A stretch of 44,767 nt of DNA from a virus. Shown piece by piece: positions 16,501 to 31,203 of this stretch. The notes below the pieces were generated by a model that saw nothing but the letters and a program-made list of their open reading frames with translations, was not told where the DNA came from and ran no database searches. The DNA is taken from the IMG/VR virus record IMGVR_UViG_3300013131_000076, positions 1 through 44,767 of that record; one strand, 5' to 3'. Numbering within the stretch: the first letter of the stretch is position 1; the number at the start of each line of letters is the position of its first letter. Both the position numbers and the translations under genes were made by a program.

Positions 16501-17389
16501 TAGTGTGTCCTAATACCCTACCTTTCTGAGTTCTTAATACAAAACCCATACGAATAAGATATGGTTCTATACTATTCTCTATCGTTTCTAGTGCTATTCC
16601 AGTTACAGATGATATAGACTTTAATCCGAGTGGATTACCCCTATTCTTCTTTAGTACATCCAAGTATATTCTATCATAGGCATCCAGACCATTTTTATCA
16701 ATACCTTGAAGATTGAAAATATCGTCTACAGATGAATGTTTACCAGTACATGAAATATAGTTCTGATACCATTGTAATCTAGCATTTAAAATACGAGGAG
16801 TCCCTTTACTCCTTTGTGCTATTTCTAATAAATCAGAATCACTTATCATTAGTCCGAGCTTTTGGGCGTTCAATCCTGCTAGTTTGGCTAACTCATCGTC
16901 ACTATAAAAACTCAAATGTTCCTTGATAGTAAATCGGTCATAAAATGGTTGACTCAAACTACCACCACTAGTTGTTGCTCCTACTAGAGTAAATGCTGGA
17001 ATCTCTATTTCTTCTGGCTCTTTATCCATAACTATACTAAACTTGAAATCCTCCATCACAGGATAGAGAAATTCTTCAACCAGTTTGGGTAGTCTATGGA
17101 TTTCGTCTATAAAAAATACTGATCGTTTGGTCATCCTAAACATATAGGGCAAAATTGCTTTTACGCTTCTAAGATTAGCAGCATTTGCCGTATACAGATT
17201 AACATCCATCTCGGAGGCTATAGCACCCGCCAGGGTTGTTTTACCAAGGCCAGGAGGGCCGTCTATTAAAACATGAGGGAGGATGCTGTCGTTTTTTTTA
17301 CAGCCCGCTGTGCTTATCTTTAACCGGCTAATCACATCGTTCTGACCAATAATTTCATCAAAAGAAACTGGACGTTTTACCAATGTCAT
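16490..17389 (-). CDS. RuvB-like Holliday-junction AAA+ ATPase
   Basis: A 299-residue AAA+ protein very close to bacterial RuvB. It has RPVSFDEIIGQ at the N-terminus, Walker A GPPGLGKTTLA, Walker B FFIDEIHRL, LYPVMEDFKF, sensor 1 LVGATTSGG, the RSKGTPRILNARLQ arginine region and the C-terminal winged helix ending EPYLIRMGFVLRTQKGRVL. RuvB drives branch migration of recombination junctions. No RuvA or RuvC is visible here, but an endonuclease VII resolvase is encoded at 29.8 kb. The start at Met5 (17389) is preferred because GGAG lies six bases before it. Confidence 0.93.
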   Translation of the reverse strand: MTLVKRPVSFDEIIGQNDVISRLKISTAGCKKNDSILPHVLIDGPPGLGKTTLAGAIASEMDVNLYTANAANLRSVKAILPYMFRMTKRSVFFIDEIHRLPKLVEEFLYPVMEDFKFSIVMDKEPEEIEIPAFTLVGATTSGGSLSQPFYDRFTIKEHLSFYSDDELAKLAGLNAQKLGLMISDSDLLEIAQRSKGTPRILNARLQWYQNYISCTGKHSSVDDIFNLQGIDKNGLDAYDRIYLDVLKKNRGNPLGLKSISSVTGIALETIENSIEPYLIRMGFVLRTQKGRVLGHTNGK

Positions 17390-17401
17390 TGTATTCTCCA
17401 A

Positions 17402-17800
17402 TTAGTCGTTTTTATCTTTTACCCAAAACACAAAATCATTTGACTTTTCATCATAAGCCATATCAACCAGACCCTTTTTTACTAAGCCGTTAAGAATATT
17501 ACTAACCATTCGGCTATTTATTTTTTCCAGAACATCAGCAAATATTTTCTCGTTTAGAGTATATCTGGTTCGCTTTTTGTTTTTGCTGACCCGTATCTTA
17601 ACAGACTCTTTCACGATAAGCAAACACTCTTGGTGAGATATTATCTTATCAAATTCTGCTTGTTCGCTTTGCTTAACGGTATCTATAAGAGAATCTAATT
17701 CGTCCGCTTTATCCCATGCTCCAAAATTATTAAAGACTATTGCTCTAACTTTGTCTGTGAATTCATCTATATCGTTAATAATAAACCATTCTTCTTCCAT
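17402..17800 (-). CDS. Conserved hypothetical protein, 132 aa; paralogue of the 32.4 kb protein
   Basis: Unknown function. The C-terminal motif LVDMAYDEKSNDFVFWVKDKND matches the 140-aa protein at 32392-32814 (LIECAWDNDLNEMVFWAKDNQ), and both start with an acidic segment followed by IR..V/A..F. The middle is Lys/Arg-rich. The C-terminal half has the look of a winged-helix domain (MVSNILNGLVKKGLVDMAYD). It lies directly upstream of the RuvB-like gene, so a DNA-associated role is possible. Confidence 0.7.
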   Translation of the reverse strand: MEEEWFIINDIDEFTDKVRAIVFNNFGAWDKADELDSLIDTVKQSEQAEFDKIISHQECLLIVKESVKIRVSKNKKRTRYTLNEKIFADVLEKINSRMVSNILNGLVKKGLVDMAYDEKSNDFVFWVKDKND

Positions 17801-17809
17801 TTTCTACTC

Positions 17810-18193
17810 CTAGTTTAAGATATCGAATAACCCTTTGTAATATTTGGGCTGTTGTATAAAATGAGAAGCATTGGCTTGTATGTGTTGTTTATATTGGTTA
17901 TAGATAGGATCATAAACAAAATACTTGCTTTTCCATATACCTTCACCTAAATAATTGGATCCCAAATACTGGAACTTTTTATCGTTCACAGTATTGGGAT
18001 TCCAACTATTCACAGGAAACTCAACCGACGGAAAACTATTGATATTATTCATGATATCCGTCATCCATTCTGAGAACGGAGAATCATGTCCAAAATCAAA
18101 TGTAAAATACCATTTGTAGGGATCAACATTATTATCATAATCATGATCATCGTTGTATCCATCATCTTCATCATCATGATCTTGATCGCTCAA
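17810..18193 (-). CDS. Hypothetical protein with acidic N-terminus, 127 aa
   Basis: Unrecognised. The first 24 residues are an Asp/His/Asn-rich run (DQDHDDEDDGYNDDHDYDNN). The rest is aromatic-rich, with YKWYFTFDFGHDSPFSEWM and QYLGSNYLGEGIWKSKYFVYD, which could be a folded domain. It lies four bases after the primase-like gene in transcription order. Confidence 0.65.
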   Translation of the reverse strand: MSDQDHDDEDDGYNDDHDYDNNVDPYKWYFTFDFGHDSPFSEWMTDIMNNINSFPSVEFPVNSWNPNTVNDKKFQYLGSNYLGEGIWKSKYFVYDPIYNQYKQHIQANASHFIQQPKYYKGLFDILN

Positions 18194-18196
18194 TGT

Positions 18197-19354
18197 TCAC
18201 CCCACACAAAACTGATCACTAAGTTTCGCAGCCAAATCCTTTGCGGCACTACTCAGGAATCGGTTGTTGCTGAAATACAACGCTGTGGACGCTTGGTTGA
18301 GGTACTCCACGACCGTTTTTAAGAGTCTGGTCTGCTCACTGGTCAAGTTTAAACCATATAATCCACAATCGGTTGGCACACCATACGCTTTGGACTGAAT
18401 ATTAAGGTTGTCTTTTGGTAGATTACCATCTTCTTCATCACTATCATCATACAAATCAACAGATGGTAAACTATTTTTCTGACCACAAGCACCCCACTGT
18501 TTCCAAACATCGACTGATGTGTTGCTGATCTTAATATTCTGATTTTGTAGATCATTCAAAATACTTTTAGCAACATCAATTGATACTGGAACACCATTCT
18601 GGTCAGCATTTTTATATGCCTTAGCATAACCCTTGTACCAATCGTCGCTGCATTTAGATGGATCAATTGTTACTGTGGCTGGCTGACCAGTTAATGCACT
18701 CTGTAATTCTACCACATTAACTTTCTGCCCTGTTGATCCTTGAAGAATACTGGTAAAGTATGGAGCCTTTTTCTCCCAGTTCTTTCTCCACCAAGTATAA
18801 GGCACACGATAAATTTGATTGGCCTTGATCGCTCTTGGATCACCACTAAAGTAGTTGACTAACTTCTTTTGTAATCCATTCCAATAAGTCTTATTCTTAC
18901 CAATCATCTTCACTGACTGGTCATCAAAAATCCAATAGCATTGATAACCATTACGAGTATCCACAACCCAAGTTGGAGGAACAGCAAAATTATTGATCCT
19001 CTCTAGGAAAGTCTTTTTCTTTTGCATCACAACGCTAGGCTTAAAATACTTACCATCACTATCTCGACCAGCATCGATATCACAAAAACAGCAAGTAAAG
19101 TTATTGATTGCGTATAGTTTGCGACCACCATTTACATAGAAATAAACATCGGAACCACTATGAGCATTTGCTTCAATAGCAGTATCCAGAGTATCTGTAT
19201 GATTCATGCTACTAATCTTCTTACGAGGATTACCGTTGTAGCAAAATATGTGCTTAATACCAAAAGAATTAAGAAATTTTTCTCGCCTGGAAACAAATTT
19301 CGTTGTGCTAAGTTTGTTATCAAATGGATTGAATCCTAGATCATCATTAAACAT
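18197..19354 (-). CDS. Archaeo-eukaryotic primase (AEP/RepB-primase-like) protein
   Basis: A 385-residue protein. Its N-terminal 200 residues resemble primase-polymerase/RepB-type primases. The metal motif is CDIDAG (Asp92, Asp94). TWVVDTRNGYQCYWIF and GDPRAIKANQIYRVPYTWWRK carry the conserved Arg/Asn positions of the nucleotide-binding region. A conserved core His in the second motif is not obvious to me. The C-terminal part is less conserved, with an acidic stretch DDSDEEDGN. No helicase domain is fused. It may prime phage replication. Confidence 0.78.
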   Translation of the reverse strand: MFNDDLGFNPFDNKLSTTKFVSRREKFLNSFGIKHIFCYNGNPRKKISSMNHTDTLDTAIEANAHSGSDVYFYVNGGRKLYAINNFTCCFCDIDAGRDSDGKYFKPSVVMQKKKTFLERINNFAVPPTWVVDTRNGYQCYWIFDDQSVKMIGKNKTYWNGLQKKLVNYFSGDPRAIKANQIYRVPYTWWRKNWEKKAPYFTSILQGSTGQKVNVVELQSALTGQPATVTIDPSKCSDDWYKGYAKAYKNADQNGVPVSIDVAKSILNDLQNQNIKISNTSVDVWKQWGACGQKNSLPSVDLYDDSDEEDGNLPKDNLNIQSKAYGVPTDCGLYGLNLTSEQTRLLKTVVEYLNQASTALYFSNNRFLSSAAKDLAAKLSDQFCVG

Positions 19355-19416
19355 TTTTTTCCTTCGTCTAAATCCTATATTGGGACAGCAACCTCTACCG
19401 TCATTGTCAATATAAA

Positions 19417-19481
19417 AAAGGAATTAGGGGATCGAACCCTAAGAAATAGCACTAACTATTCTAGTCGCCAGACTATTCCTT
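19417..19481 (-). tRNA. Miniature tRNA-like element, 65 nt, anticodon uncertain
   Basis: On the minus strand a 7-bp acceptor stem (AAGGAAT with ATTCCTT) encloses a short D-like hairpin (AGTC, loop TGGC, GACT). Next come an anticodon-like hairpin (AATAG, loop TTAGTG, CTATT) and a perfect T-arm (TAGGG, loop TTCGATC, CCCTA). The missing positions 8-9, four-base D loop and six-base anticodon loop are not canonical, so the amino acid cannot be assigned. If the closing G-C opens, TAG could be the anticodon (Leu). A U6 tract follows, so it may also end transcription. It could be a decayed tRNA gene or a tRNA mimic. Confidence 0.55.
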
Positions 19482-19489
19482 TGCTTTAA

Positions 19490-20356
19490 TCAGCCAGGAT
19501 AAGAGTTGTCGTACTCATCCTCATCATCTTCATAATCTTCGTCGTCCTCGTCATCAAACTGATCCCAGTAATCATCGCGGATATCATAATCCTCGTCATC
19601 ATCCTCGTACTCGTCCTCGGAAAAATTAGCAGAGTAAAGAGGCTTGAGAAGTTCGCCTTGATACTCTCCAACAACTTCGTATTGGCAAGTGCGAAGTTTC
19701 TCACAATTACAATCACTAGGAACACTAACAACATCACGCGGATTAATCTTAACGATCACAATACGATCATGTGCTTCCACAGACCCATAACCAGCAACAT
19801 AGTTTAATGCTCCAGCATGAAGTCCATTTGAACAACCGCGACCACGATCATCATCAACCTTGGCTCTTTGCATCTTGCAAATCTTGCCAACACTATTATC
19901 AAACGTACCACGATACTTATCCATATAATCACTTCTCACAGCCTTGTAGGCAAGGAAATGACCATCCTCAGTAATGGGCAGATGCTCATGCTCAAGGAAA
20001 TCATAGAGTTCCTTTTGACTCTGCATACTAGGATTCTCCATAAGATTGTTGAGGAAATTAACAAGAGGCTGGAAAGGCAGACCCTTGCTCATAAACTCAA
20101 GAATACGCTTGCTGATACTGCCGTGAACTTCCTCACCCTCATACATCACCTTGCCATTCTTAATCTCCACCATACCATCGCTAAAAGCGGATACGGCTTT
20201 TTCCACATCAACAATATCCAAGAGTTCATCAGCAGTTGCGGTTGGCAACGCCTCAAGAATCATCTTATAATTAATATGATCCGGCAAAACCTGATAGGTT
20301 CTATTGTTAAGAACCAGAGTCAGATTACCATCAACCCACATAAACGGAACGCTCAT
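19490..20356 (-). CDS. rIIB: rIIB-like protein with acidic C-terminal tail
   Basis: A 288-residue protein. The core has KRILEFMSKGLPFQPLVNFLNNLMENPS, LPITEDGHFLAYKAV, DKYRGTFDNSVGK and GCSNGLHAGALNYVAGYG, the characteristic blocks of phage rIIB-type proteins. The last 45 residues are almost all Asp/Glu/Tyr, an unusual low-complexity tail. In T4, RIIA and RIIB are membrane-associated, affect lysis inhibition and exclude infection blocks by lambda Rex. The gene follows rIIA by 27 bases and has an AAGGAG site. Confidence 0.85.
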   Translation of the reverse strand: MSVPFMWVDGNLTLVLNNRTYQVLPDHINYKMILEALPTATADELLDIVDVEKAVSAFSDGMVEIKNGKVMYEGEEVHGSISKRILEFMSKGLPFQPLVNFLNNLMENPSMQSQKELYDFLEHEHLPITEDGHFLAYKAVRSDYMDKYRGTFDNSVGKICKMQRAKVDDDRGRGCSNGLHAGALNYVAGYGSVEAHDRIVIVKINPRDVVSVPSDCNCEKLRTCQYEVVGEYQGELLKPLYSANFSEDEYEDDDEDYDIRDDYWDQFDDEDDEDYEDDEDEYDNSYPG

Positions 20357-20383
20357 TATTTTTCTCCTTGTTTACCTGTGAAA

Positions 20384-23014
20384 TTAACCAAAAACTTTAC
20401 TAATTTGATCCCTAAACAAATCAACCTTATCTAACGTAACAAACCAACTAGATGATCTTCTCCAACTTTGACGGTCATCAAGTTGATTGAGAGGATCAAC
20501 ATCTCTGAGATTTCTCAAATTACCATCAACCGTGTTGGCACACATAATATACTTGAGCAGCGGGTTGCTGTCAAGAGTTGTCTTAATTGTTTTTCTTAGA
20601 TCGCTAATGGGTGATAGAGTATGTTTTTTGTCTCCATCATTCTTAGTGGAAATAAATTTCTTATATGTGTCCGAAGTATTCGGATACCAACTCTCTAAAA
20701 GACTCTTCATTGAGTTAAAGAGTAAGTTAGTATTCTTGATCTTCTTTACATCTAAGCCATTAATACCAATAGCATCAAGCAACTTGGCAATATGAGCATA
20801 GTAGTCTGTTTGCTTAAATCTTTTTAGATCATATCCATTACGATGAATAGTATCGGCAAAAAACTCCATTACAATCAGACTATCAATAGTGTTTACTAGA
20901 GTTTTGTCCGAGACATATTCTTCATAGTCCAGACCGAATATGTTCAGAATATGGTATACAAACTGTCTATCAATATAGCCTTCGTCATAATCATGATTCA
21001 TCTTGTCATCAGTGTTGTATTCTTTCTTACAGAATTCGATCACACTATTAATATCACGCACATCACTAAACTGTGAGGAATCAATAGTCTTGAGTCGATC
21101 TTTGAACCAAGAGTTAAAATCAATTAGGTTGTACCCGTCCTTAATTAAACGATCCACACTAGACTGTTTGATAGCATAGATATTTTCTCCACCAAACACA
21201 GAGTTATCCGTAATAATCTTATCCCAACGCTTAATACCTTCTATCTCTGGATAATTTTCAATAGACGCATATCGTAGAATAGGAATATAAACGATAGTAT
21301 CAGCATCCTCCAAATCATCCAAACGACTAGCACTAAGACTTCTCATATGAGAAGCATCATTGTAGCCATAATTCAATGCTGTGGTATCTTGTGCGTCTCC
21401 GTAAACCAGAAAAATATCTTGGTCACTAACGCTACCCTTGCTACCTTTACTTGCTCTAGTTTTTGGAGTTGACTTAATTAGATCACGATGATCCGAAACA
21501 TTAAGAATATTAGACTCTCCAACATCCTTGACTAGTGCTTTAAAACCATTGGTCACATCCTTATGATCTGTGGTATTAACCAACAGATAAGCAAAACAAT
21601 CATTCTGATTGCAATACTTGGTAACAATCTTTTTGGCTGTTTCCGCAGCACTCATATCACACCAGAAAAACTTCATTGAGTTAGTCTTTTTCTGATGATT
21701 CCAATAGTATTGACCCTTACCAGTTAGAGTTTCGTGATGAATCTTATCTGTAAGATAAATCATGCGTCGAGAACGATAACCCGCTGTTCTATAATTAAAC
21801 ACATAAAGGTTCTCATCCTTCTTGAGTTTATATTCCAGATCCTCACCAGAATTAATAGGATGATCTTTACCATCACTATCTTTCCACGATGCTCCAACAC
21901 CCCATCCACCAGCAAGATCATTCATGGTATAATATGTGGTGATTGCTTCTACTCTGTTTTTAGCAGATGCGATTTTGTCACTAAAATTCTTTTTGAGTTC
22001 CACATAAATTTCCTGGGTCTTTTCACGCAAAGACTTAATAACAGCCTTGGTATACTGCAAACCCTCTCGACTAACATCCATCTCAAGTTCGCCAATACCA
22101 AAATCCAACTCTAGATAAAGACCCTGTTCGATAATCTCGCTAACAAAACTCTTCCAAGATGCAATATCCGCCTTGTTAAAAGCACGATTCCACTTAGCAA
22201 TATGATCTGGAGTATCTGCCTTTTCTTCTCCGATCAAATTACTAGCCTGAACAGGATAAGCAATATTGCCCATGATAGCCACAATACCGCTATCAATATG
22301 ATGATGATTATTAGGAAAAAGATCGTTGGAATTTAGTCTGCAAACTCTCCAACCCTCACCATCAATAATAATATTGCGATTACTATACTGCTCACTAAAA
22401 TTGTAGTTAACACCACCAGTAATAGTGGGCCTACTCTTAAAGTAATGAAAAATCCTGACCGCTTTCTTACTAAATTCATGAAAGTCATGCTGCTTAACAG
22501 CAAAACTAATCTCTAGACCATTAGGTTCATCAGTATCACAACTATGAATAAGGTTCAGAGTAGGAACACCAGCATCATCAATAGCAGCAATATAAGTATA
22601 CTGCTTACCATTATAATAAGATGTTGTGGTAAAACTCTTGGTATAAGCAAAAGGACTCTTGCTACCTAGTCCAAGACAACCCACAAAATCATTACTATCA
22701 TTTTTGTTACTAGCACCATAAGTTGTATACAGATGTTCCATATCTTTCTGACTAAGACCAGTACCATAATCTCTAACAGTAAAGTTAGGATCAGCAGCAG
22801 TTGGCAACTTTACAAGAAAAGGATTCTTATTACCAGCACTAACATGAGAGTCAAAAGCATTAGTGCCAAGTTCACGAATAACTGCCATTACTTTGTCGGA
22901 ATATAAAGAGTCCGACAAGATTTTAAACATTTTGCTCGTTTGAGCAATAGTAAATTGATTAGCACTACTAATACCAGCACTATGAACTTCAACAGTTCGA
23001 TCCGCAAGTTTCAT
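20384..23014 (-). CDS. rIIA: rIIA-like protein (GHKL ATPase)
   Basis: An 876-residue protein. The N-terminal GHKL ATP-binding domain shows the N box AVIRELGTNAFDSH, the G1 box VRDYGTGLS and the G2-like GCLGLGSKSPFAYT, as in RIIA, Hsp90 and MutL. The rest is long and poorly conserved. The start at 23014 (MKLADRTVEVHS) is chosen over 23176. GGAG lies eight bases upstream of it, a promoter lies 33 bases upstream, and the extra 54 residues of the longer frame overlap the next gene and the promoter. It is transcribed together with rIIB. Confidence 0.88.
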   Translation of the reverse strand: MKLADRTVEVHSAGISSANQFTIAQTSKMFKILSDSLYSDKVMAVIRELGTNAFDSHVSAGNKNPFLVKLPTAADPNFTVRDYGTGLSQKDMEHLYTTYGASNKNDSNDFVGCLGLGSKSPFAYTKSFTTTSYYNGKQYTYIAAIDDAGVPTLNLIHSCDTDEPNGLEISFAVKQHDFHEFSKKAVRIFHYFKSRPTITGGVNYNFSEQYSNRNIIIDGEGWRVCRLNSNDLFPNNHHHIDSGIVAIMGNIAYPVQASNLIGEEKADTPDHIAKWNRAFNKADIASWKSFVSEIIEQGLYLELDFGIGELEMDVSREGLQYTKAVIKSLREKTQEIYVELKKNFSDKIASAKNRVEAITTYYTMNDLAGGWGVGASWKDSDGKDHPINSGEDLEYKLKKDENLYVFNYRTAGYRSRRMIYLTDKIHHETLTGKGQYYWNHQKKTNSMKFFWCDMSAAETAKKIVTKYCNQNDCFAYLLVNTTDHKDVTNGFKALVKDVGESNILNVSDHRDLIKSTPKTRASKGSKGSVSDQDIFLVYGDAQDTTALNYGYNDASHMRSLSASRLDDLEDADTIVYIPILRYASIENYPEIEGIKRWDKIITDNSVFGGENIYAIKQSSVDRLIKDGYNLIDFNSWFKDRLKTIDSSQFSDVRDINSVIEFCKKEYNTDDKMNHDYDEGYIDRQFVYHILNIFGLDYEEYVSDKTLVNTIDSLIVMEFFADTIHRNGYDLKRFKQTDYYAHIAKLLDAIGINGLDVKKIKNTNLLFNSMKSLLESWYPNTSDTYKKFISTKNDGDKKHTLSPISDLRKTIKTTLDSNPLLKYIMCANTVDGNLRNLRDVDPLNQLDDRQSWRRSSSWFVTLDKVDLFRDQISKVFG

Positions 23015-23046
23015 TTGTATTCTCCAAGGTTTCCTGTGATGCTCGT

Positions 23047-23074
23047 AGTATACATCGTCATTCCGCGTTGTCAA
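23047..23074 (-). promoter_or_regulatory. Sigma-70-type promoter for rIIA/rIIB
   Basis: On the minus strand: -35 TTGACA (23074-23069), 16-bp spacer, -10 TATACT (23052-23047). It lies between the 81-aa membrane protein and the rIIA start, leaving a leader of about 26 bases with GGAG. It belongs to the repeated promoter family described in the findings. Confidence 0.75.
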
Positions 23075-23316
23075 CCTTGATTTTTCTTTTGATTCACTCG
23101 TTGAATACTGATGTAACCAAAATAGATTGGTATTAATCCTATATACCATACTGGTAAGGCTAGAGAAGCAAACCAAAGTCCACTAACGATTGATAGTGCT
23201 GATAATATATAAACTATAAAAGATGGAAAATTTAACCTTAAGGTTAAGTATGCTAACGGTCCAATCAAAATAGTCACTAAAACTATTAACGATGCTGCTA
23301 ACGCTAAACTAGCCAC
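23071..23316 (-). CDS. Small membrane protein, 81 aa
   Basis: Two to three hydrophobic helices: residues about 2-27 (LALAASLIVLVTILIGPLAYLTL), 31-50 and 52-70. The tail is basic (SIQRVNQKKNQG). It has no known motif. It lies directly upstream of rIIA, whose T4 counterpart is membrane-associated. The last bases overlap the rIIA promoter. Confidence 0.65.
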   Translation of the reverse strand: MASLALAASLIVLVTILIGPLAYLTLRLNFPSFIVYILSALSIVSGLWFASLALPVWYIGLIPIYFGYISIQRVNQKKNQG

Positions 23317-23639
23317 TAGATTTCCTCTTCGTCATCTTGGTCTTTCCAATCATCTTTTGGAACCCATGTTTCATCAGTATCATCAATATTATAATTTTCT
23401 TCCAAATCCTCATCATCTTCTGCTAACATGATGGTGAAACTATTGAGTATTTCTAACATAGCATCAACTTTGTGAGCAATATCTCTAATCTCGCGTTTGA
23501 TTTCTGTTATGTCTTTTAGTATCTTGTCTTGGTTTTTACTAAGACCTTCTACATCCTTAGATAAAGAGTCGTCTTTTTTATATAAGTCCCGATATGATTG
23601 ATCAATTTTTTTATAGATATCATTAATATCTCTGGACAT
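23316..23639 (-). CDS. Coiled-coil protein with acidic tail, 107 aa
   Basis: Residues about 5-75 form a probable coiled coil (LSKDVEGLSKNQDKILKDI, then IKREIRDIAHKVDAMLEIL). The C-terminal 35 residues are strongly acidic with Trp (WVPKDDWKDQDDEEEI). It is coupled to the downstream membrane protein by a one-base overlap. Function unknown. Confidence 0.7.
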   Translation of the reverse strand: MSRDINDIYKKIDQSYRDLYKKDDSLSKDVEGLSKNQDKILKDITEIKREIRDIAHKVDAMLEILNSFTIMLAEDDEDLEENYNIDDTDETWVPKDDWKDQDDEEEI

Positions 23640-30845: not shown

Positions 30846-31203
30846 TGGTGGATGCGGCGGGAATCGAACCCGCGTCCTAGCATAAATCAAATTACATCTT
30901 CTACAAGTTTATTTTGTTCATGAGTTAAATAGGAATACAGAACAAACAAGATTCATCCTATCTTACCAACTGCTCTTAACCTACAACCCGTTGGATATTG
31001 TAAGTGCAGAGGGATTTAACATCAGACTTTTGATCGCTACCCTCATTCGCAATCGCAGTCTGTCACTGCCCTTTTTTGTCAGGCAGCAAGTGCTAACTGA
31101 TTATTGCCAGTTAAAGCATTTAGTAGACTTTTATAGTGGCCTGTCTACCAACCACTACTTGCTAACATAACTCTCCGTATGTAGTCGAAACCTTTACGCA
31201 CCC
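30846..31203 (-). ncRNA. ssrA: Transfer-messenger RNA (tmRNA), one-piece, tag ending LALAA
   Basis: Minus strand, 358 nt. The 5' acceptor GGGTGCG pairs with CGCATCC and CCA is encoded. The 5' part has the conserved TAAAGGTTTCGACTAC segment and the 3' part a T-arm with GGGTTCGATTCCC. The tag frame ends at 31079 with TGA and reads NALTGNNQLALAA for its last 13 residues (from 31120); the exact resume codon is not clear. The domains are in normal order, not permuted. tmRNA rescues stalled ribosomes and marks products for ClpXP-type proteases. It is preceded by tRNA-Ile and followed by a protein gene. Confidence 0.93.

Follow-up and report, generated by a model that had tools for sequence, protein, structure and literature searches.

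A conserved tRNA-like element follows rIIB in a clade of uncultured phages and may act as an RNA-processing signal

Plant mitochondrial t-elements are tRNA-like structures at the ends of mRNAs in which the CCA is not encoded; in the excerpt of the source used here they are cut by RNase P and RNase Z and are CCA-tailed, not charged (PMC11658184). According to the same excerpt they are homologous to recognisable tRNA genes (PMC11658184), whereas the tRNA-like element described below (TLS) lies in a DNA phage, is attached to one fixed gene, has no anticodon arm and forms a covarying family of its own, its cutting being predicted. The yjdF riboswitch is a further tRNA-like cis element of bacterial mRNA, with an elbow built from a D-loop GG and a T-loop, and the part of its description drawn on here has it as a leader, with a pocket for a ligand, placed 5' of its own gene (PMC9142559); the TLS, in contrast, follows and tracks rIIB. 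The tRNA-like domain of tmRNA likewise consists of the upper half of a tRNA without an anticodon arm, but the TLS receives no tmRNA call from Rfam or ARAGORN, and the phage has a separate tmRNA at 30846-31203. Mitochondrial tRNA punctuation and RNase P-cut phage RNAs such as C4 and M3 provide tRNA-shaped or hairpin cleavage signals in longer transcripts, and are, within the excerpt, real tRNAs or unrelated hairpins (PMC11143913), whereas the TLS is a conserved degenerate mimic. Excerpts also describe hairpins of acceptor, T-stem and T-loop as RNase P substrates and some mRNAs as cut by RNase P (PMC11143913), RNase P as measuring the acceptor/T stack from the elbow, and RNase Z as clamping the elbow and acting on CCA-less precursors (PMC4919913). 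No paper describing the TLS was found by title or abstract start in open PubMed Central, a collection that leaves subscription papers mostly outside.

The window, by which we mean the whole virus record of 44,767 bases, carries rIIA, rIIB, a primase-like gene and RuvB/clamp-loader-like genes around the TLS, all on the minus strand (Table 1). The initial annotation had described a 65-nt tRNA-like RNA with a small D arm, missing positions 8-9 and a six-base anticodon loop, and all of these can be read on the minus strand, a strand that the annotation left unnamed. Its placement of the element between rIIB and a primase-like gene, with a U tract after it, also agrees with the gene calls, rIIB being a PHROG 609 match and the neighbour a weak match to a DNA-primase PHROG. 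The TLS starts 8 nt 3' of the rIIB stop codon, and the spacer between acceptor and D-like stem is 0 nt. The GG of a tRNA D-loop pairs with the T-loop, and the same GG is retained in the D-like loop of the TLS.

Table 1. Positions of the TLS, its parts and the adjoining features in the window
Feature	Position	Strand	Description
tRNA-like element (TLS)	19417-19481	-	7-bp acceptor, 4-bp D-like stem with UGGC loop, middle hairpin, 5-bp T-stem with UUCGAUC loop, U tract
Acceptor stem, 5' strand (AAGGAAU)	19475-19481	-	Partner 19418-19424; compensatory changes among relatives
Acceptor stem, 3' strand	19418-19424	-	CCA not encoded; U next
D-like arm (AGUC-UGGC-GACU)	19463-19474	-	Stem 19474-19471/19466-19463 (AGTC/GACT), loop TGGC
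Middle hairpin	19442-19462	-	At anticodon-arm position, not an anticodon loop; tip TTAGTG; other arms or none in other relatives
T-arm	19425-19441	-	T-stem 19441-19437/19429-19425; T-loop TTCGATC 19436-19430
rIIB homologue	19490-20356	-	PHROG 609, E 1.7e-74; acidic C-terminus
Primase-like gene 3' of TLS	18197-19354	-	Weak PHROG 'DNA primase' match, E 2e-05; other genes there in many relatives
Second conserved RNA hairpin, leader of primase-like gene	19374-19415	-	Outer and inner stems of 7 bp each, separated by a 5x1 internal loop; terminal loop of 5 nt, mostly RNGKU

ARAGORN and Rfam call tRNA-Leu, tRNA-Ile and tmRNA in the window and leave the TLS unreported. A relaxed-threshold Rfam search of 19300-19600 returned chance snoRNA matches only, and at the Rfam gathering score no match, to a riboswitch such as yjdF or otherwise, was found at the TLS site in the window or anywhere in the loci of 16 relatives selected from those collected. 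A reading as tmRNA finds no RF00023 match, no tag-peptide frame and no ARAGORN tmRNA call at the site. Measured against a functional tRNA, the TLS has a canonical T-arm and acceptor, and lacks a full cloverleaf with a 7-nt anticodon loop and a call by the tRNA finders. Promoter-like sites near the TLS of the window do not exceed those in shuffled sequence. The phage-encoded tmRNA of the window (minus strand) has counterparts in relatives (L184, L189, L520, L523, L529 and L530), with tag peptides that differ among them (GNNQLALAA, GNTQLALAA, ADTSVLALAA).

Folding of single sequences is not decisive for the TLS, whose significance comes from its relatives. The fold of the window TLS is only mildly unusual (z = -2.1 to -2.2, with 6-8 of 200 shuffles equally good), and lone folds of pieces from relatives gave z = -0.5 (L056) and -0.3 (L053, where the piece ended before the acceptor was completed). 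The cloverleaf was absent from the lone folds of L020 and of L032, the latter a piece incomplete at its end.

Relatives were first collected in two samples of the 80 nearest each, searched with the primase-like protein and with rIIB. The T-arm motif was present 3' of rIIB in 171 of the 172 rIIB-bearing loci compared at first; the exception, a contig ending at rIIB (L131), was dropped, and the remaining loci yielded 84 distinct regions. An explicit model, comprising an acceptor of 6-8 pairs, a 3-4 bp stem with a loop ending UGG or UGGN, a free middle and the T-arm, fits 80 of the 84. When the part 5' of the T-arm was dinucleotide-shuffled, the observed score was reached in 5 of 4800 shuffles of the 80 fitting sequences (245 of 5040 when the four misfits, for which each shuffle counts, are included). 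The misfits are L029, with one D-stem base off, L074 and L087, in which the D-like arm is unrecognisable, and L057, with two T-arms. Two T-arms at the TLS site were also seen in L034 and L060; in all three loci the second is followed by the acceptor 3' strand, possibly the result of an internal duplication.

The initial annotation's view of T-arm and acceptor as canonical holds across these 80 sequences. Each T-stem pair is standard in 79-80 of 80, and acceptor pairs 7 to 3 are standard in 76-80, pair 2 in 62 and pair 1 in 59, with 5-8 contiguous acceptor pairs in 67 of 80 (range 3-11). In the D-like stem, which takes the forms AGUC/GACU, CCGC/GCGG, GUU/AAC and AGC/GCU, all counted cells are standard; acceptor and D-like columns come from the best-fit parser and lean towards pairing, whereas the T-stem columns (for which the threshold is only 4 of 5 pairs) and the MAFFT-based counts are independent of the parser's choice of acceptor. 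At the third position of the T-stem G-C, U-A, C-G and A-U are all found (with one G-U), and this pair, which has undergone at least 21 changes on the rIIB protein tree, is intact in 80 of 80. In 77 of 80 the T-loop reads UUCGAUU or UUCGAUC, and in all 80 it fits UUCRAYY, the last being a search condition. Similarly, the D-like loop ends in UGG or UGGN in 80 of 80, as imposed by the model; in marine relatives it may end in AGG, and such cases were counted by the T-arm alone. The middle arm varies in length (2 nt in 7 sequences, 13-24 in 28, 38-44 in 42, and otherwise 5, 62 or 71). The first acceptor pair is mostly A-U, the base after a 7-bp acceptor is U in 72 of 80, and CCA is not encoded at the modelled acceptor end.

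The elements fall into several forms. The window falls in class A, and across the 11 sequences of this class double changes are seen at 11 of 24 predicted pairs. Class-B elements are about 86 nt long and have a middle arm made of a hairpin in two parts that covaries; over the whole structure both-side changes occur in 16 of 28 pairs and 95.5% of cells pair. None of 500 shuffles reaches any of five measures, and slid alignments pair in 38.6-48.2%, a further count giving similar results; this structure was drawn from the same sequences as were counted (alignment A2, 28 of 30 class-B sequences, leaving out L135 and L016). A class-B covariance model (R2) that did not have the window in its training finds the window TLS at E 1.2e-7 and 43.7 bits, vs 25.9 bits for the tRNA-Ile of the window. 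The smallest form (L056, about 43 nt) retains the acceptor, the D-like arm and the T-arm only. Class-C elements (L063, L071, L079, L110, L372) often have an extra hairpin of variable sequence, placed after the rIIB stop and ahead of a GGAAGAA-like motif that immediately precedes the acceptor. These sequence comparisons confirm the TLS as a real conserved element and support its reading as a tRNA mimic, with the shape of the upper half of a tRNA and without a working anticodon.

The position of the element is tied to rIIB. The acceptor begins 5-12 nt 3' of the rIIB stop codon in 69 of the 80 modelled sequences. Read-through of the stop codon was considered for this spacing and rejected, the frame behind the stop not being kept open. 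Three further samples were added, as the first two covered nearest relatives only and so hid those without a TLS. At a threshold of at least 60% rIIB identity, 415 loci reduce to 164 distinct regions (distinctness judged on the first 100 nt), with the TLS in 147 and absent from 17, among them L374, whose rIIB is 78.5% identical. The TLS is dispensable, given these 17 of 164 close-relative regions. A quick tree built from 162 rIIB sequences requires at least 9 changes of presence for the TLS vs at least 31 for the primase-like gene. Where the primase-like gene is missing the TLS stays, and the next start codon lies 5-28 nt behind it in 21 of 23 readable cases. Across these loci the TLS remains with rIIB as the gene behind it changes. 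In L016, L261 and L279 an insertion of about 600-700 nt, which in L016 reads like an HNH homing endonuclease gene, separates the rIIB stop from a TLS retained in place.

Some loci offer clues to where the rIIB transcript ends. In five marine loci (L377, L380, L393, L403, L426) the TLS is separated from the next gene by a promoter-like sequence, so the TLS would be at the end of the rIIB transcript unit there; the pattern behind the promoter label is loose, and of the seven rows with both TLS and promoter two (L470, L227) look spurious. An outgroup sample comprised 62 loci, with L291 and L298 being members of the same clade that carry the TLS; here a terminator-like hairpin and a promoter-like sequence often come after rIIB instead (judged by eye, uncounted). 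Therefore the TLS occupies the place at which the rIIB transcript seems to end in other phages. A terminator-like hairpin also follows rIIB in the isolate LR756511, isolates being barely sampled here (the downstream region of LR756511 and the gene table of phage T2).

The element is a single copy in each long record searched for it. When all viral contigs were scanned for the class-A/B signature, 99 stretches emerged, of which 98 were re-read: 83 adjoin rIIB, three are a TLS at a contig end or behind an insertion, seven are tRNA-Tyr (ARAGORN 7/7), and the remaining five are another uncalled tRNA-like stretch with CCA, in four of five cases near called tRNA genes. These five (L222 at about 1620-1710 on the plus strand, and L204, L225, L273 and L282), with AGTCTGGTGACT, a T-arm and CCA, lie near tRNA-Leu in four cases and have a tRNA-Pyl call in three, and their phages apparently form an unrelated group. 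A search of 12 long records (100-233 kb) for the T-arm word GGTTCGATYCC gave 25 occurrences: the TLS accounts for 12, one in each record, 11 are tRNA or tmRNA by ARAGORN, and two are uncalled (L180, L191), that of L191 having no tRNA context. In L180 (1490-1721, minus strand) the 3' half of a tRNA follows a sequence like the end of a group I intron, at the contig end and without an ARAGORN or Rfam call, and we read it as a tRNA probably split by a group I intron.

The TLS carriers are a clade of uncultured phages with T4-type rIIA/rIIB genes. The primase-like protein had 0 matches in 50,697 isolate phage records, a search of isolate phages with the DNA of the region gave weak, short matches only (3 records), and rIIB matched 2842 isolate records, all at less than 60% identity. 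One relative with the TLS (L372, rIIB 83%) is on a Chitinophagia MAG contig and one without it (L373) on a Flavobacteriales MAG contig, a hint of Bacteroidota as hosts, bin membership of phage contigs being a weak guide.

Between the TLS and the primase-like gene lies a second conserved hairpin, which has no Rfam match. In 41 aligned sequences 12 of its 14 pairs have double-sided changes and 97.9% of cells are paired, compared with 31-53% in slid controls and 0 of 500 shuffles reaching any measure; again the structure was drawn from the sequences that were counted (alignment A1, the window and 40 of 45 hairpin references, leaving out L122, L185, L158, L130 and L080). The corresponding model, R1, finds a single copy in 10 of 13 records, missing G003, whose form is divergent, as well as two records in which the primase gene is absent at this position (G011 and G012). 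The model also misses the divergent form of L030/L185, and did not find the hairpin in seven marine-clade records. The hairpin is absent in L125, and none was seen in L056/L122 despite the primase gene following. As judged from these occurrences, the second hairpin goes with the primase-like gene, not with rIIB. Our guess is that it may be a protein-binding or translational control site.

The initial annotation had offered a decaying tRNA, a tRNA mimic or a processing/termination element; the mimic is retained, processing appears on present sequence comparisons to be the best-supported function, and decay and intrinsic termination are set aside below. We tentatively favor a reading, by analogy with the known systems, in which the TLS is a tRNA mimic in the rIIB 3' UTR that would be recognised by host RNase P/RNase Z and define the end of the rIIB mRNA. 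The basis is that the retained features are those read by RNase P, RNase Z and CCA-adding enzymes, with the anticodon arm lost. The TLS would keep what the tRNA-maturation enzymes measure, namely the stack of acceptor and T helix, a T-loop of canonical form and a D-like loop that carries GG and is able to form the elbow, and would have dropped the part used for decoding. Host RNase P may cut the 5' edge, and RNase Z, or 3' exonucleases stopping at the TLS, may make the 3' edge, giving an rIIB message with a defined, stable end, separated from the next gene. The missing CCA and the following U suit RNase Z. Also in favor, only generic tRNA features (T-loop, GG) are fixed while acceptor sequence and middle arm vary freely, and, as in t-elements, a tRNA-like structure abuts the coding end of an mRNA (69/80; 147/164). 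The inconstant acceptor length (5-8 contiguous pairs in 67/80) counts against processing, and so does the absence of the TLS from 17 of 164 distinct regions. Bacterial RNase P favors a G1-C72 pair, and the usual A-U first pair of the TLS is a point against. The strict D-like arm asks more than RNase P does, because the D-loop is dispensable for that enzyme according to the excerpted source (PMC4919913). A broader proposal, in which the TLS is a dedicated anticodon-less mRNA punctuation mark cut by host tRNA-maturation enzymes, and the mini-RNA set free, bearing a CCA tail, may have a further effect in trans on host factors that bind tRNA, we consider doubtful.

Action in trans alone is unlikely. 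Such a TLS would be a free small RNA, perhaps CCA-tailed, serving as a decoy that occupies a tRNA-binding host factor or nuclease. The strong elbow features, the lack of an anticodon and the single, gene-like copy would all suit this role, but the element is bound to the position of the rIIB stop codon, and its acceptor sequence and following base have no synthetase-like identity, apart from the U tract. Nor was a moved copy seen in four long records that lack the TLS at rIIB (80-160 kb, possibly incomplete), in which the five T-arm matches comprise two tRNA-Leu, a tmRNA, an uncalled 3' end resembling that of a tmRNA, and one with a 1-bp stem.

Slightly less weight is given to a structural barrier that is not cut, shielding the 3' end of the rIIB mRNA from exonucleases or pacing transcription or translation at the end of rIIB. 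The fixed distance from the stop codon (5-12 nt in 69/80) and the replacement by the TLS of the terminator-like hairpin of many outgroup loci are consistent with a barrier; however, a plain hairpin would suffice, and the conserved T-loop and GG loop would be left unexplained.

It is rather improbable that the TLS boosts translation of the next gene, possibly in a ligand-dependent manner, as tRNA-like leaders and the yjdF riboswitch do. Support for such a role comes from the excerpted work in which cis tRNAs gave 2- to 6.3-fold more translation in vitro and the elbow GG mattered in yjdF (PMC9142559), and from some primase-less relatives in which the next ATG is only 5-8 nt 3' of the acceptor, without a clear ribosome-binding site. 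The position is nonetheless tied to the rIIB stop and not to the next start, the second hairpin intervenes where the primase gene is present, and an mRNA started at the promoter-like sequence behind the TLS in L377, L380, L393, L403 and L426 would exclude the TLS.

An intrinsic transcription terminator, the termination element of the initial annotation, is very improbable. The T-arm stem with its T-rich tail is the sole terminator-like site at 17000-23500 of the window, but the scan that found this one site gives a mean of 3.2 in shuffles, 37 of 147 relatives have a T run of 3 or less there, and the next gene of primase-less relatives starts 5-28 nt behind (21/23 readable), in some only 5-8 nt away. 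A decaying tRNA gene or a chance fold, to which the folding energy alone (z = -2.1) might point, is rejected with near certainty, since ARAGORN finds a full-length ordinary tRNA at the same locus in none of 60 relatives' loci selected from those collected, and since pairing has been kept by compensatory changes, indicating strong selection, in an element conserved in 147 of 164 distinct regions.

We thus report two undescribed conserved RNA families, the TLS and the hairpin before the primase-like gene, from a phage group well represented among viral metagenome contigs and for which no isolates with the primase-like neighbour gene were found. The TLS is a new RNA family that, by analogy with the described systems, most likely works in the manner of known tRNA-like processing signals. 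Ranging from about 43 to more than 100 nt, and with the middle arm swapped or removed, its variants form a natural deletion series of tRNA, which would show the parts of a tRNA that a tRNA-recognising machine needs once decoding is not required. If processing is the true function, the TLS would give bacterial viruses an equivalent of t-elements and tRNA punctuation and would provide a compact RNA-cutting signal.
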